This document shows, in pieces, positions 28,127 to 60,448 of a stretch of 64,000 nucleotides of DNA. Position 1 is the stretch's first letter. The number at the start of each line of letters is the position of its first letter. Where the stretch lies: assembly GCF_009765985.1 (NCBI RefSeq), contig NZ_LMUM01000015.1:310001-374000 (forward strand), in the 5' to 3' direction. This stretch comes from Acidobacterium sp. S8. GTDB lineage: Bacteria; Acidobacteriota; Terriglobia; Terriglobales; Acidobacteriaceae. Both the position numbers and the translations under genes were made by a program. The notes beneath the pieces were generated by a model that saw only the letters and a program-made list of their open reading frames with translations, ran no database searches and was not told the DNA's origin.

Positions 28127-28291
28127 GTCTGGTTCGAGAATCTTCGACATATGCTGTCAAGCCATTTTTTACCATGCCGGCCGTAAGCCATTGCTTTAAA
28201 ACAATATTCGTTTGCACAATCATTGACAGAGAGTTATGCCTCAAAAGATTAAACTTAAATAAGGAAAACAGAACTATAAGGTCCACGTTCA

Positions 28292-28310
28292 TTAGCGGGC
28301 CCCCCGCTAA
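28292..28310 (+). repeat. GCGG hairpin repeat, copy A
   Basis: Stem TTAGCGG/CCGCTAA with a 5-nt loop, then GTGATTGAAAAT. Same layout as copy B 66 bp downstream. Confidence 0.65.
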
Positions 28311-28357
28311 GTGATTGAAAATACTAGGAACGACCTAAGTCTATTAGAATCAGGGGA

Positions 28358-28382
28358 ATAGCGGGGGATGCTCCCCCGCTAT
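28358..28382 (+). repeat. GCGG hairpin repeat, copy B (terminator-like)
   Basis: Perfect 10 bp stem ATAGCGGGGG/CCCCCGCTAT around ATGCT, then CTTATTGAAAAC. Read from the minus strand it is preceded by TTTTCAATAAG. It could terminate the ADOP and the SDR transcripts, and shares its tail with an inverted copy near 56.12-56.15 kb. Confidence 0.7.
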
Positions 28383-28428
28383 CTTATTGAAAACAAAAGA
28401 AATGAAGAAATTAGGAGGGGGGAGGGGG

Positions 28429-54751: not shown

Positions 54752-54916
54752 ATCTTTTTCTCCTTCGCTGGCAAACGGATACTACCAGATATTAGAACCT
54801 TTATGGTTCTATTTCGTCATATCAGACAGTGAGATGCCGCGTTTATCCTTCGCGCTGCCACTGCGTTAGGAATGAAGCGGCAACAGGAAGAAAGATTCGG
54901 AGATAATGAAGAGGTT

Positions 54917-56026
54917 ATGAGAACGATTCCTACCAGCACACGACTCGTGCAAGCGGCAGTACTCTCTGCTGCGCTGCTATTCGGAGCAGGCTGCAAGAAA
55001 GAAACAGCGCAACAACCGGCGCGGACAGATCAACAAATCACCGGCGATGTTCAGGCAAAAATATCGGGCGAAAGCGCTCTGAATGGACAGAATATTCAGG
55101 TCGCTGTACAGAACGGCATCGCCACTCTTTCCGGCGCGGCCAATGATGATGCCTCGCGCGCGCTGGCCGGAAATGATGCCGGCAGCGTGGATGGGGTGAA
55201 AACTGTCGTAAATAATTTGACGGTTCAGCCTCCACAGCAGGCTGCGGCTTCAGTGGCGGCTGCTCCGGCTCCCGTTCCGGAGAAGAAGCGTGAACCTGAG
55301 CGGCATAAGGAGAAGCAGGTAGCTGAAGCGACGCCTCCTCCGCCTCCCGCACCAGCGCCAGCTCCCGCCCCGGTACAGCAGGCGGCTCCGGTTCCACCGC
55401 CGCCACCTCCGCCGCCGCCGCAACCAGTAGCGAAGACGGTCACAATTCCTGCGGGCACGATCATTCCGGTGCGCATTACGGATGCGCTTAGCAGCAAGGA
55501 TGCACAGGCGAACCAGACCTTCCATGCGTCACTGGCAGGCGATCTGGTTGCCGATGGCATGGTTGCCGTTTCGCACGGAGCCAATATCGTTGGCCGTATA
55601 GTGGACGCGAAAGATGCGGCTCACTTCAAGGGCAGTTCCCTGCTCTCGATTGAGCTCACTCAGATCGATACTCAGAGCCGCCAGATTCCAGTCGTGACTG
55701 AACCCTATTCCCGCGAGGGCAATGCGCGCGGCAAGAATACTGCCGTGAAGACCGGCGGTGGTGCAGCGCTTGGAGCGATCATCGGTGCGCTGGCGGGCGG
55801 CGGCAAGGGTGCCGCTATCGGCGCAGTTGCTGGAGGCGGCGCTGGAGCTGGCGTGAACGCCGTTACTCGTGGACAGCAGGTGGAGATTCAGCCGGAAACG
55901 CTGATCAACTTCAAGCTGCAGTCACCGATTACGGTGACGACCTCGCATAAGGTGGGAGCCGTTCGCTCGTTCGATGACAACAGCAACAGCAGCAGTCCGG
56001 AATTGCAGCAGCGTCCACCGCAGTAA
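54917..56026 (+). CDS. BON-domain lipoprotein with glycine zipper
   Basis: A 369-residue lipoprotein. The signal ends LLFGAGC, with the lipidated Cys at about residue 24. Then come a BON domain at about 40-110 ([37 protein letters not shown]), a Pro/Ala-rich linker with long poly-Pro, and a beta domain ([19 protein letters not shown]). A glycine zipper ([20 protein letters not shown]) precedes the C-terminal tail. The order of domains is the same as in the protein at 42971-44161, so the two are paralogues, but only this one is a lipoprotein. ATG at 54917 has GAAGAGG before it; the ATG at 54872 is further from the signal. Envelope role inferred. Confidence 0.85.
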
Positions 56027-56043
56027 GCCATCCCTTAACTTTG

Positions 56044-56110
56044 TAAATTCCTTATTTTCAAGAATTTAGCGGAGCACGATCCCGCTAAATTCTTGATTCC
56101 AGGGAATTTA
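56044..56110 (+). terminator. Two-layer hairpin after the BON lipoprotein gene
   Basis: Inner perfect 14 bp stem (56059-56072 with 56082-56095, core GAATTTAGCGG) and outer 8 bp stem TAAATTCC/GGAATTTA. It starts 18 bp after the stop. A poly-T tail is lacking. It may stabilise or end the transcript. Confidence 0.6.
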
Positions 56111-56120
56111 TGTTTCTCTA

Positions 56121-56150
56121 ATGTTTTCAATAATTTAAGAGAGCGGCTTT
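56121..56150 (-). repeat. Inverted copy of the CCGCT...TTATTGAAAAC repeat
   Basis: Read on the minus strand this contains CCGCTCTC, then TTATTGAAAAC, matching the tail of copy B at 28358-28392. The GC hairpin arm is replaced by CGGC/GCCG (56144-56155). Confidence 0.45.
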
Positions 56151-56288
56151 GGCCGTTTTGTGGCGCAAGGAAAATTGCTCTATATCCAGAGTAGCAATTT
56201 AGGCGGTAATTCTCTGCCAAACTTCGCAGGAAATAAATCGCTTGTTTTGTTTGGTTTATAACGGATTCTTAAAGTCGGGGGGGGGCTT

Positions 56289-56400
56289 GACAGGGTTATC
56301 GGTTCGCCGGTGAATTTTATAGCCGGGCCTTGAAGGCCCTTCGTCTTTTTTTTGTTAATTCACCGCCGACGGTTCTAGCCCTTCGGGCCCACGCCCTGTC
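56289..56400. other. Large branched inverted-repeat structure with internal terminator
   Basis: Outer 7 bp stem GACAGGG (56289-56295) with CCCTGTC (56394-56400). Inner 9 bp stem CGGTGAATT (56308-56316) with AATTCACCG (56357-56365). Inside it is a terminator-like hairpin GGGCC/GGCCC (56325-56339) followed by a T8 run (56346-56353). A further small hairpin GCCC/GGGC lies in the right arm (56378-56388). This suggests a folded RNA or a mobile repeat unit. No known family was recognised. Confidence 0.55.
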
Positions 56401-56412
56401 TTATACGCTTTC

Positions 56413-56452
56413 TATGAAAACCCAGGTTAACTTCGCGAACCCGGGGCACCCG
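56413..56452 (+). repeat. 40 bp hairpin repeat, copy 1
   Basis: Begins TATGAAAACCCAGGTTA and ends CGGGGCACCCG. 37 of 40 positions match copy 2. One change breaks one stem pair. Confidence 0.75.
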
Positions 56453-56526
56453 CTGTGATTAAAAACCGATAGAAGAAGGCCACGATGTAACTGCCTTCGA
56501 GCTCACGCGATGCTGCGTATGATTTC

Positions 56527-56566
56527 CATGAAAACCCAGGTTAGCTTCGCGAACCTGGGGCACCCG
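56527..56566 (+). repeat. 40 bp hairpin repeat, copy 2
   Basis: Contains the perfect 8 bp stem CCCAGGTT (56535-56542)/AACCTGGG (56552-56559) followed by GCACCCG. Period to copy 1 is 114 bp. The tail GGGGCACCC is shared with the repeat at 15167-15209 (other strand). Confidence 0.75.
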
Positions 56567-56604
56567 GTACTCCTAATTCATTCAGTATTACTGGTACTTG
56601 GGCC

Positions 56605-56631
56605 GGGTAAGAAACCTGGAGTTTCTTACCC
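56605..56631. terminator. Hairpin at the S53 protease gene end
   Basis: Perfect 11 bp stem GGGTAAGAAAC/GTTTCTTACCC with 5-nt loop, 13 bp past the S53 gene stop. Only a weak T tail exists on either side. Confidence 0.65.
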
Positions 56632-56643
56632 GCTTTCTCGTGC

Positions 56644-59600
56644 TTATTGGGTTACTGTGACGGTGACAGCTGCAGATGTCGAACCCGTGTAGTTGGTATC
56701 TCCGGCGTAGACGGCCGTGATGCTGGTACTTCCGGTTCCACCACCACCGCCGCTGCCGCCACCACCACTACTGGAGCTAGGGCTGCTGCCGCAGGCGATG
56801 ACGTTCGACATCAGTAAGGCGAAGATTGCCAGGCCGAGGATCGCGCGCCAGCTGCGGCGACGCGCCGGGACGGTGAAGAGGAAGAGGCAGGCTACAGCGA
56901 GGCCGCCCGAGAGCTTCCATGAAAAGGCGCTGTGATCTACCTTGGCTACTTTCACAGAGCTGGTGATCTGGCTTGCCGGGATTTGCAGGCTGTACAAGGC
57001 TGCGACCGTACTGCCCTGACCCGATGTATTGGAGACAAAACCAGTCGCGGACGCGGTCTGCACGGTTCCCAGAACGGTGGTGCCGTTCTTGAAGGTTACC
57101 GTTCCCGTGGGGGCAAGGCCGATGCTATCGGTATTGACCTGGGCCTGCAGCGTGACGGTTGAAGAGGTCGAAGTCTGGGTGGCCTGGGCGACTGTGGTTG
57201 TCGCACCCTGCGTGAATTTGATCGCCAATCCGCTGGCCGAGCTTGACTGATAGCTCGGGTCGCCGGAATAGGCAGCGGAGATGCTATGCGATGCGACTGA
57301 AAACGACTGATTCTGGTAGTACCAGTTGTCGTAGACTGCTGCTCCGCCGTTGGCAATTGGTACGCTGATGGGATTGCCGGGCTGATTGTTGTATGTAAGA
57401 TTGCCTGCCGAATCGGAGAAGCTAATGCTTCCGGTAGCAGAGGTATTTGAATTCGACGCTCCTATCGGCTGGGCGTTGATGGATGTCGCAGATCCATACG
57501 GGATCGTGGCGCCAGCGCAAGCTGGTGCAGACTGATCATAGTCATTGCAAATCGTGTTGAAGCTCTTGGGGTCATAGACATAAGCACCTAATGAAATCGA
57601 ACTCTGTTCGGGCGTGATGTTGACCGCAATCGGCGTCGTGGATTTGCTGCCGGCATGGTTCACGTCGCCGCCATAGTAGGCGTAGACGTTATACGTGCCG
57701 CCGGGAAGATCACCCGTCTGTCCGCTGGCGGTACCGTTGGACAGTGTCAAAAATTCGCCGGGAAGCGCGCCGTTGTTTGTCAGACCGCTGTCATTGATGA
57801 TGCTTACATCACCGTCCGGCGTACCGTTGGTGCTGGTAACAGTGGAAGAGAAGGTCAGGTTGGTTCCATGCACGACTGAATTGCCGCTGGTAAAGCCGGT
57901 AATCTGCAAGGTTGTCGTGGTGGGATAGATGCTGGCTTTGGTCCAGTTCGCGACCAGTTGCGATACATCCACGCTGCCGAGACCGCTGGCCGCGTCATAA
58001 CCGGTTCCGGTGTTGTAGCCGGTCAGGAAGCCATTCGTTCCGCAATCTGTACTTCCGGATGTGCAGACTACCGAATTATTGCCGGTGGTGGTGTCGTGGA
58101 AGATCTTTGAGTAAAGTGCCGGCTGGTTCGCCAGGTTGTAAAGAACATTGTTGGCCTGCCCGAGACGGATGCCACCCTGCGACTGCGATACAAGAGCCAG
58201 CATTGCTGCGAAGGCAGGCGCTGCGGCCGATGTGCCTCCTACACCCGTAAACGTGCTGCTGCTTCCCAACTGACCATTCGTTAATTGGCAGTCGGTGTAG
58301 GTCGATCCATCGGAGGCGGGGAAAGAGACACTGTCAGCGCAGACGACCCAGGTGGCTCCGTAAGTCTCGTCGGAGGCGAAGAGGGAGACGTCGGGAACGG
58401 CACGGGTGGCTGCTGCACCGCCAAAGATCGAACTGGGCACCACTCCTCCAGCCTGGAATGGCGGCTGTGGATAGCCGGAGCCTGTCGTGCAAAAGATGTT
58501 TCCATTCGCATCTGTCGTGGAATCGGTGCAACTGCTGACGCCTCCGCCTGCACCGACGATGTTGGTGTTTCCATTGCTGTCTTTGCTAGCCGTGTTGGCG
58601 CTGAGGAGGGCATTCGTTACCGTCGAATCGTTCCAAGGTGTTTCTGGAATGTAACCCTTCGCGGTGAGATAGAAATTGGAGGCACTGTTTGTAGTATCGA
58701 CGTACTGAGCGAAGCCGGTAGCGGTGCCGAGAACGTCGAAGTCGGTTCCTCCGACTGCGATGTTATAGGGTGTAGACGCAAGGCCGCTGATGGCCAAACC
58801 GTTCGTCGCCGTGGTGACGCTGTTCTCGTCGTCACAGCCTGCCGATCCGCTGTCACCCGTGGAGGCGGTGACGCTGATGCCCTGGGCGGCGGCCTGCTCC
58901 CATGCATTGAGGATCTGCTGATTGCCGCTGGTACCCTGGGCAGCTTCGCAGGCGCCGAAGCTGACGTTCAGGATGCTGACATTGTTGTCGTCAAGAGCGC
59001 GGTAGATGGCGAGAAAGAGGCCTGACTGGAAGTCTGTATCGGCAGCGGTATAGAAATTCACCTTCGCGCCGGGAGCGATGCCGCCGGAGACTTCGAGATC
59101 GAGGAGAGCCTCAATGGCGTCGCCGGTGATGCCGGGGTCGTTGCCATCGACGATGATGCTGGGCTGGTTTCCGCCGTAAGACGATGGCAGGAAGGCAGCG
59201 CGGTAGTTGGTGATGTCGGAGGGGGTGATGTTGGAATCGCCTGCGATGCCGATGGTGATGCCGGTTCCGTCATAGGTTTTGCCGCCGACCAAGGACGAGC
59301 TTGCCGACGAATAATTACCATTCAGGGTTGAGTTCGGCGTGTCATAGATGGTAGCTGCGTCTGCCGCGTCAACGAAGAGGTAATTGTTGCCGTTACTGTC
59401 GCTCAAAGTCAGGTCAGGCCTGATGTTCTTCGATTCCGGATCGTAATGCGCCTTGGTTTTGGTGATGGCGCCACGGCGGGGGCGGAAGTCGTTCAGCGGT
59501 GCGATGCCGCCGATGACCGGGGCGAGGGCGGCGGGAATCTGCGGGTCGGTCGCGTTGGCGAAGTGGGTTTCGCCGTTGATCACATATTTATGGATGGAGG

Positions 59601-60108
59601 TGTGGAAGGCCTGTTGAATCTGAGCGATGTTTCCGGAGAAGATGACGACGTTGTGGGCCTGCGGCACCTTATCTACGGTAAAGCCCTGGGACTGCAGCCA
59701 GGCGGCGACCGTGTTCAGGTCGGTGTCGCTGACACCGTACTGCTGACCAAACTGGACCGGGGTGAGCCATTTACGGTAATTAGCCGAGTGGGGGTTTTGC
59801 AGGTCGCCGAGGTATTGCTTCAGGCCGTTCTCCTGCGCGTCGCTGCGCTTGAGCACCAGCATGATGCGTCCGGTAGCCATGGAAGCCGGAGCCGCGCCCT
59901 GATCGTACCTGGCTTGCGCGAGCGGGTGTACGTTGTGCTGCAGTGTAACGCGGTTGTCAGGATTGATCACCTGAGTAATACGGGTGGGGACGATAGCCTG
60001 CGTGTCGTTCTGAGCAAGGGCCGAGGCAGTGAAGGCAAAAAGCCCAGCGGCGGCTAGTGCGGCCAGCCGGGAGACGACGGTGCGAGGCTTTGGATTTGTA
60101 TCGAACAT
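56644..60108 (-). CDS. Secreted S53 (sedolisin/kumamolisin-like) protease with Ig-like repeats
   Basis: An acid-active serine-carboxyl endopeptidase by family. The 1154-residue product has a signal peptide (ends TASALAQ), an S53 pro-domain at about 60-200 (NPHSANYRKWLTPVQFG), and a catalytic domain at about 250-690. The catalytic Glu/Asp lie in IEALLDLEVSGG and the Ser in VGGTSAAAPAFA; the calcium-site region is GYDAASGLGSVDVSQL. Three Ig-like repeats follow to about 1050. The C-terminus is unusual: two hydrophobic segments (KLSGGLAVACLFLFTVPAR and ILGLAIFALLMSNVIACG), a Gly-rich linker and a final partial Ig repeat. ATG at 60108 is chosen for AGGA 5 nt before; longer frames start at 60114 and 60174. 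Confidence 0.93.
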   Translation of the reverse strand: MFDTNPKPRTVVSRLAALAAAGLFAFTASALAQNDTQAIVPTRITQVINPDNRVTLQHNVHPLAQARYDQGAAPASMATGRIMLVLKRSDAQENGLKQYLGDLQNPHSANYRKWLTPVQFGQQYGVSDTDLNTVAAWLQSQGFTVDKVPQAHNVVIFSGNIAQIQQAFHTSIHKYVINGETHFANATDPQIPAALAPVIGGIAPLNDFRPRRGAITKTKAHYDPESKNIRPDLTLSDSNGNNYLFVDAADAATIYDTPNSTLNGNYSSASSSLVGGKTYDGTGITIGIAGDSNITPSDITNYRAAFLPSSYGGNQPSIIVDGNDPGITGDAIEALLDLEVSGGIAPGAKVNFYTAADTDFQSGLFLAIYRALDDNNVSILNVSFGACEAAQGTSGNQQILNAWEQAAAQGISVTASTGDSGSAGCDDENSVTTATNGLAISGLASTPYNIAVGGTDFDVLGTATGFAQYVDTTNSASNFYLTAKGYIPETPWNDSTVTNALLSANTASKDSNGNTNIVGAGGGVSSCTDSTTDANGNIFCTTGSGYPQPPFQAGGVVPSSIFGGAAATRAVPDVSLFASDETYGATWVVCADSVSFPASDGSTYTDCQLTNGQLGSSSTFTGVGGTSAAAPAFAAMLALVSQSQGGIRLGQANNVLYNLANQPALYSKIFHDTTTGNNSVVCTSGSTDCGTNGFLTGYNTGTGYDAASGLGSVDVSQLVANWTKASIYPTTTTLQITGFTSGNSVVHGTNLTFSSTVTSTNGTPDGDVSIINDSGLTNNGALPGEFLTLSNGTASGQTGDLPGGTYNVYAYYGGDVNHAGSKSTTPIAVNITPEQSSISLGAYVYDPKSFNTICNDYDQSAPACAGATIPYGSATSINAQPIGASNSNTSATGSISFSDSAGNLTYNNQPGNPISVPIANGGAAVYDNWYYQNQSFSVASHSISAAYSGDPSYQSSSASGLAIKFTQGATTTVAQATQTSTSSTVTLQAQVNTDSIGLAPTGTVTFKNGTTVLGTVQTASATGFVSNTSGQGSTVAALYSLQIPASQITSSVKVAKVDHSAFSWKLSGGLAVACLFLFTVPARRRSWRAILGLAIFALLMSNVIACGSSPSSSSGGGGSGGGGGTGSTSITAVYAGDTNYTGSTSAAVTVTVTQ

Positions 60109-60448
60109 GGCCATCCTATAAAGGTTCGAACTGTTTGTCTGGATTGATTGTCCAGAATACCTGACGCTTGCCAATGATATTCCCGCATACAGCGAATTAC
60201 ATTCCCGAGCAGTATATCCGGACAGGGTGCCGCGCCTAAGTCAAATGGGTCCGGGACCCGGTGCCGCGGGCGCTCCTGGGGGTGAAGCAGGAGGATATCG
60301 GACTGGTAAACCGCTAGCATGCTGTGACTGCGCATACATGTAGACAGAAATTGGCTGGATTTGTTTCGCTGGGTGGAAAAATTCATTGTAACTGTTGCTG
60401 CTGTCCTGAGAGATCGTCGCTTCCGATGAGACGCGGGAACGCACTATA
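60109..60448. other. Intergenic stretch between S53 protease and PepSY genes
   Basis: About 340 bp. It should hold the S53 promoter (minus strand). A 67-codon minus-strand frame at 60241-60444 ends in a Pro/Ala/Gly-rich tail (SPPGAPAAPGPG). I see no ribosome site or family match for it, so it is left as a weak candidate only. Confidence 0.35.

Follow-up and report, generated by a model that had tools for sequence, protein, structure and literature searches.

A probable decayed REP doublet adjoining a dispersed intergenic element in Acidobacterium sp. S8

GTAG-tagged REP elements, REP dimers and the RAYT genes of the so-called REPtrons are described in the relevant parts of two publications (PMC3733652, PMC8266576). 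Section 16 of the former, which deals with TIRYT and TIRtrons, places the transposases of T. saanensis, K. versatilis, A. capsulatum and G. mallensis in one group, an acidobacterial one with longer flanking repeats, and its legend speaks of 'double palindromic' TIRs. Section 27 of PMC6006769 is concerned with Class 3 TnpA-Y1 and the high-copy structures found with them, ~600 in Solibacter usitatus, and Granulicella aggregans appears in a table of palindromic repeats in PMC12306157.

In this paper, we compare with these systems an intergenic structure at positions 56289-56400 of a 64-kb window, by which we mean the whole stretch of DNA analysed and whose numbering is used throughout; features lie on the + strand unless stated otherwise. 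A first-pass annotation, made from the letters alone, had placed the structure in gene-free DNA between tail-to-tail genes, and the flanking genes are indeed convergent, encoding a BON-domain protein (54872-56026, +) and a Pro-kumamolisin/Big_3_5 protein (56644-60174, -). Direct reading of the sequence also bears out what was described there, namely nested stems, a hairpin, a T8 run and an extra hairpin in the right arm, GCCC-TTC-GGGC at 56378-56388. The 7-bp outer stem is formed by GACAGGG (56289-56295) and CCCTGTC (56394-56400), and the 9-bp inner stem by CGGTGAATT (56308-56316) and AATTCACCG (56357-56365); the latter can be extended to 13-nt arms (56304-56316 and 56357-56369) with a 92% match. 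We consider it likely, with a rough probability of 0.78, that this structure is a decayed REP doublet adjoining a dispersed intergenic element.

The REP doublet family and the window element

A doublet of the kind proposed here would consist of two palindromes ~15-20 nt apart, the second of which carries a GTAG-type tag on the opposite strand, and would belong to the non-autonomous repeats whose spread is ascribed to the action of REP-associated tyrosine transposases on single-stranded hairpins. The family was defined by an alignment (A3) of 25 doublets taken from 30 pattern matches, five rows with no first palindrome or an unclear one having been left out (L185 twice, L191, L205:2920 and L207:2678), and this alignment is the basis of a covariance model, R2. 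The stems of A3 are paired in 97.2% of the cells, and 28 cells carry changes in both partners, where shuffles give 10.0 ± 1.9 and none of 500 reached 28. Compensatory changes, by which the first-pass annotation had proposed to check the structure, thus occur in the family's two REP palindromes, where 6 of the 13 pairs are changed on both sides, and not in the outer of the nested stems. The tag, TCTACC (GGTAGA on the other strand), is found in 23 of the 25 aligned rows. At E ≤ 0.001, R2 has at least 67 matches in this genome (G000) and at least 72 in its congener G003, and it matches at least 32 of 61 genomes, 30 of which belong to the same family, represented by 37 genomes in all.

The genome has three matches to Y1 transposases, all of which are REP-associated tyrosine transposases by NCBIfam. 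One of them, the ORF L227:1458-1913, matches NF047646 (REP_Tyr_transpos) with 120.3 bits, the cut-off being 80, and five full-length doublet matches lie around it, on both sides. By analogy with the REPtrons in the parts of PMC3733652 and PMC8266576 that describe them, a REP-type transposase would have spread the doublets. Another transposase gene (L228:1612-2160) lies among repeats of a second REP-like family, at C27:499274-500053.

When R2 was run against the 64-kb window at E ≤ 10, the sole match was 56312-56380 (19.8 bits, E = 0.0031); on 56020-56650 alone and without filters the same match reached E = 3.1e-05, the next best being 0.74. The order of parts in the window is that of the family, a REP1-type palindrome followed at ~15-20 nt by a REP2 head: the hairpin GGGCCTTGAAGGCCC at 56325-56339, which aligns to REP1 of R2, is followed, after a T, by the linker TCGTCTTTTTTTTGTTAA and TTCACC. 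The linker (56340-56358) contains the T8 run (56346-56353) and stands in the position of REP doublet linkers; T-rich linkers are common, with at least five T in an 8-nt stretch just 3' of REP1 in 27 of 64 parsed doublets, the window copy included. The REP2 part (56359-56380, TTCACCG...CGGTTCTAGCC) is degenerate. Its palindrome is reduced to a short remnant, with two non-standard pairs in the R2 alignment, for which reason we call the element a decayed relic, and at the palindrome end the other-strand tag GTAG is absent, CTAG being found at that place. As palindrome and tag of REP2 are both damaged, the assignment rests on REP1, the linker, the TTCACC head, the tail and the position.

The relic scores second to last of 95 R2 matches across 81 sources, clear copies having ~58-88 bits, and is too weak to be among the matches in this genome at E ≤ 0.001. 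Scaling its E-value arithmetically from 64 kb to the 5.44-Mb genome gives ~0.26, a value at which it would go unnoticed in a blind search of the genome, and we have lowered our confidence in the doublet assignment accordingly. What strengthens the assignment is its position, for at the orthologous site of G003 an intact doublet (L061:2977-3050, 65.6 bits) follows a copy of the dispersed element, module B (L061:2851-2960), in the same order as in the window. Since G003 keeps an intact doublet there, the TTGACA end of module B was probably followed by a doublet already before the split between this species and G003; the doublets of the window and of G003 would then share a common descent, and the window copy would have decayed in place, with REP1 still intact, the linker still T-rich and REP2 deprived of most of its palindrome and of its tag. 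At the orthologous loci of the other two genomes of the genus, L060 (G002) and L062 (G001), R2 found no doublet, and an independent insertion in G003 is therefore possible. One option of the first-pass annotation, a mobile repeat, gains support from the degenerate doublet core, the many better copies and the REP-type transposase gene in the genome.

Nested stems and rival readings

The reading that survives best beside the decayed doublet, and which is compatible with it, is that the REP remnant was taken over as a terminator of the upstream gene, the hairpin at 56325-56339 and the T-rich linker ending the transcript. Judged from the letters, we regard this as possible but rather unlikely. In G001, G002 and G003, the stop codon of the orthologous gene is followed within ~70 nt by a GCCCCGC..GCGGGGC hairpin that has a T-rich tail and is apparently missing from the window gene, and + strand terminator-like sites were found at 56296, 56325, 56603 and 56604, between 56026 and the next gene; T-rich stretches of the kind required are, as noted above, common after REP1. 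The hairpin, on the other hand, lies ~300 nt from the stop codon, and although its 6-bp stem has five G-C pairs, the T8 run does not begin until 6 nt (TTCGTC) after it. Because of this gap, the 'strong intrinsic terminator hairpin' of the first-pass annotation is overstated: hairpin and T8 are both there, but strength is not borne out, nor are terminator-like sites in excess in 54-59 kb (7, against 5.6 ± 2.3 in shuffles). Some weak terminator activity may be incidental to the relic. Just after its stop codon (56027-56060), the BON-domain gene of the window apparently has no terminator-like hairpin, unlike its counterparts in three congeners.

Far less probable is a small RNA or attenuator, of which the nested stems would be the conserved branched fold. 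Its main attraction is the folding energy: the + strand of 56270-56420 folds with -62.3 kcal/mol (z = -3.98), which none of 200 dinucleotide shuffles equalled, while the - strand is milder (z = -1.82; 7 of 200 shuffles as good). Stems of this kind are not scarce in the window, where we counted 13 inverted repeats made of 13-nt arms with 12 pairs or more and a gap of at most 120, against 1-7 in 12 shuffles. With 13 such repeats, three of them in the same intergenic region as 56289-56400, there is nothing unusual about the inner stem taken by itself. In the whole 64-kb window, no Rfam family attains its gathering score, and the four sub-threshold matches at E ≤ 5 in 55950-56700 all lie outside 56289-56400. 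A promoter scan, covering the sigma-70 type, yielded no sigma-70-like site in 54-59 kb. Furthermore, 56280-56405 finds only itself in the genome at E ≤ 0.001, and a DNA search of 60 other genomes with 56240-56640 returned, among the matches listed, only flanking REP-like repeats and none that covers the element.

A comparison of the outer stem between copies also argues against an RNA. Among 37 copies of module B that end in TTGACA, an exact 7-nt downstream complement to this end occurs in one, the window's own; the other 36 have no exact counterpart, nor has the G003 orthologous site (L189). Looser pairing of the module B end is not rare, since the minimum-energy fold pairs at least four of the seven end positions far downstream in 8 of the 37 copies, the window included. 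The nested architecture, as judged by the outer stem in the 37 module B copies, is not conserved. The left outer arm takes its first four letters from the conserved end of module B, and the right one falls in a local duplication, the other copy of which has CGATGCT at this place; the outer stem is probably a chance product of the module B end and this duplicated flank. The inner stem may be partly ancestral, for its right arm contains the REP2 head, and 7 of 67 doublets, the window copy included, have GTGAA in the 30 nt that precede REP1. Of the options raised by the first-pass annotation, a small RNA and an attenuation element thus find no support, be it in Rfam gathering matches, sigma-70-like promoters or exact counterparts of the outer stem, or in the site, which lies between two stop codons and not in a leader. 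The structure at 56289-56400 is probably not a new RNA.

Least credible of all is a separate miniature transposon with GACAGGG/CCCTGTC as terminal inverted repeats: inverted ends do exist at 56289 and 56400, but there is no second genome copy at E ≤ 0.001, part of the left arm is the conserved module B end, and the right one sits in a duplicate whose other copy lacks it.

Dispersed repeats around the site

The surroundings of 56289-56400 are a mosaic of dispersed repeats. Downstream, a local direct repeat of 73 nt (56380-56452) recurs at 56494-56566, with a spacing of 114 bp and 81% identity, and contains REP-like sequence of the second family; a 26-nt pattern in which just one position is two-fold fits both 56416-56441 and 56530-56555. 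A search with 56480-56580 gave 48 genome matches at E ≤ 10, itself included, nearly all of 30-48 nt. This second family, CCCAGGTTAGCTTCGCGAACCTGGGGCACCC, is represented in the window at 56416-56449 and 56530-56566; it has many copies in the genome, with a REP-associated transposase gene among them.

Upstream, the relic adjoins module B (56178-56292), a dispersed element of ~111 bp ending in TTGACA, whose window copy is one of the 19 rows of its model R1 and matches it with 72.6 bits. At E ≤ 0.01, module B was found in 21 of 61 genomes, namely in 21 of the 37 of the same family and in none of the 24 outside it, with 43 matches in this genome and at least 62 in G003. Copies in the loci L119-L223 are of near-constant length and share the TTGACA end. 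In G034, the 12 listed of 32 matches span 86-90 bp, as if ~20 bp were missing inside, and represent a lineage-specific variant. Of the three transposase genes, two have a copy of module B less than 1 kb away (L227:839-947 and L228:729-840).

In two orthologous pairs of module B, the letters are the same in 46 of 48 and in 42 of 48 conserved columns, these columns being chosen without the tested pair and ascertainment contributing to the agreement, as copies were found by similarity; the orthology of the second pair (L121, L139) was judged by eye from similar upstream coding ends. The other columns agree at 23 of 62 and 20 of 61 positions, which is about the average over all pairs of the 19 copies (0.38), so the rest of module B has diverged between orthologues as far as between unrelated copies, a contrast suggestive of purifying selection. 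As an RNA, module B has a consensus energy of -0.49 kcal/mol with three pairs, none compensated, and by crude gene calls it shows no consistent orientation to genes. TTGACA as part of a promoter was rejected, as TA---T at a spacer of 15-18 is found in 0 of 37 copies and the promoter scan was empty. A transposon with module B at both ends was likewise discarded, no pairing pattern being visible by eye in the listed places of G003, where 30 of the 62 matches are on the + and 32 on the - strand.

REP2 starts 44-66 nt after module B in 7 of 41 copies; in the window, TTCACC starts 66 nt after it by our own count and is too degenerate for the doublet pattern. TTGAC lies within ~80 nt upstream in 17 of 67 doublets, as a raw count. 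A preference of doublets for the module B end was considered and not upheld, since against the 7 of 41 copies stands a module B match in only 5 of 40 further doublet stretches.

In this genus, module B is usually preceded by module A, which in the window extends over 56053-56148 and comprises a palindrome (56058-56096) and a further half-site; it matches its model R3, of which it is one of 20 rows, with 59 bits (G000:C14:366053-366148). Matches at E ≤ 0.001 were confined to the four genomes of the genus, with none in the 33 others searched. Of the long A matches in G000 and G003, 63 in all, 45 are followed downstream, in the next 500 nt, by a listed B of the same orientation, at a distance of 21-98 nt in 42 of the 45, and none has a B in the opposite orientation within 600 nt among the B matches listed; the remaining 18 have no listed B, the list holding 25 of the 43 B matches of G000. 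At the studied site, A and B are both present in G000, G002 and G003, while in G001 A gives a weak match and B none, and B has no match in the four loci from other genera (L063-L066). The core pairs of module A are kept in 77.4% of the cells, against 36-49% when slid. RNA covariation in module A was rejected: its 15 cells changed on both sides, against 12.2 in column shuffles, were reached by 115 of 500, not clearly above chance, and an impression of strong covariation was dropped. By crude calls, a + gene lies on the left of 12 of 19 A+B copies and of 7 of the 21 B copies without a detected A that have a left gene (22 such copies in total). Module A as a 3'-UTR was also set aside, the plausible protein on its left reading away from it in L194, L202, L209, L215 and L216, and a sub-threshold match of its hairpin to Plastid-psbJ-1 was not taken as homology.

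A second A+B composite is found in the window on the - strand (28155-28259 and 28295-28395), with a weak module B (15.4 bits, E = 0.0017) and a strong module A (90.2 bits, one of the model rows). It begins close behind a TGA triplet, and R2 finds no doublet in 28155-28395.

We propose module B as a putative protein-binding DNA site. More specifically, and only as a tentative suggestion that we hold less likely than its opposite, module B, usually with module A before it in this genus, could be an undescribed DNA element under purifying selection, perhaps a candidate binding site of a chromosome-organising or boundary protein. No description of either module was recognised in the literature searched, whose partial journal coverage makes this weak evidence of novelty.

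Relation to known repeat systems

The element itself is of little import, other than as an example of how a worn mobile repeat can resemble a branched regulatory RNA. Two by-products of its study are useful: the definition of a REP doublet family that has a transposase gene amid its copies, and module B, an apparently selectively maintained dispersed intergenic element that is worth studying for its function.

High-copy hairpins linked to a Y1 transposase, with Acidobacteria among the hosts, are shared by the doublets and the Class 3 TnpA-Y1 of section 27 of PMC6006769, whose tag, however, is CnGA. The TIRtrons of section 16 of PMC3733652 are likened to the doublet by description. A further close system is that of the GTAG REPs and REPtrons as presented in the relevant parts of PMC3733652 and PMC8266576. 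Like these, the family described here consists of short intergenic palindromes in many copies with a near-constant spacing within pairs, carries the GTAG tag on one side, as GGTAGA in the opposite strand of REP2, and is found around a gene for a REP-associated tyrosine transposase. Unlike the GTAG REP dimers described there, the doublet is made of two palindromes of different sequence, only the second of which is tagged; the window copy further departs from GTAG REPs in that its tag is CTAG and most of its second palindrome is lost. As REP dimers and their transposases are already known, the element at 56289-56400 is most likely a decayed addition to known repeats.
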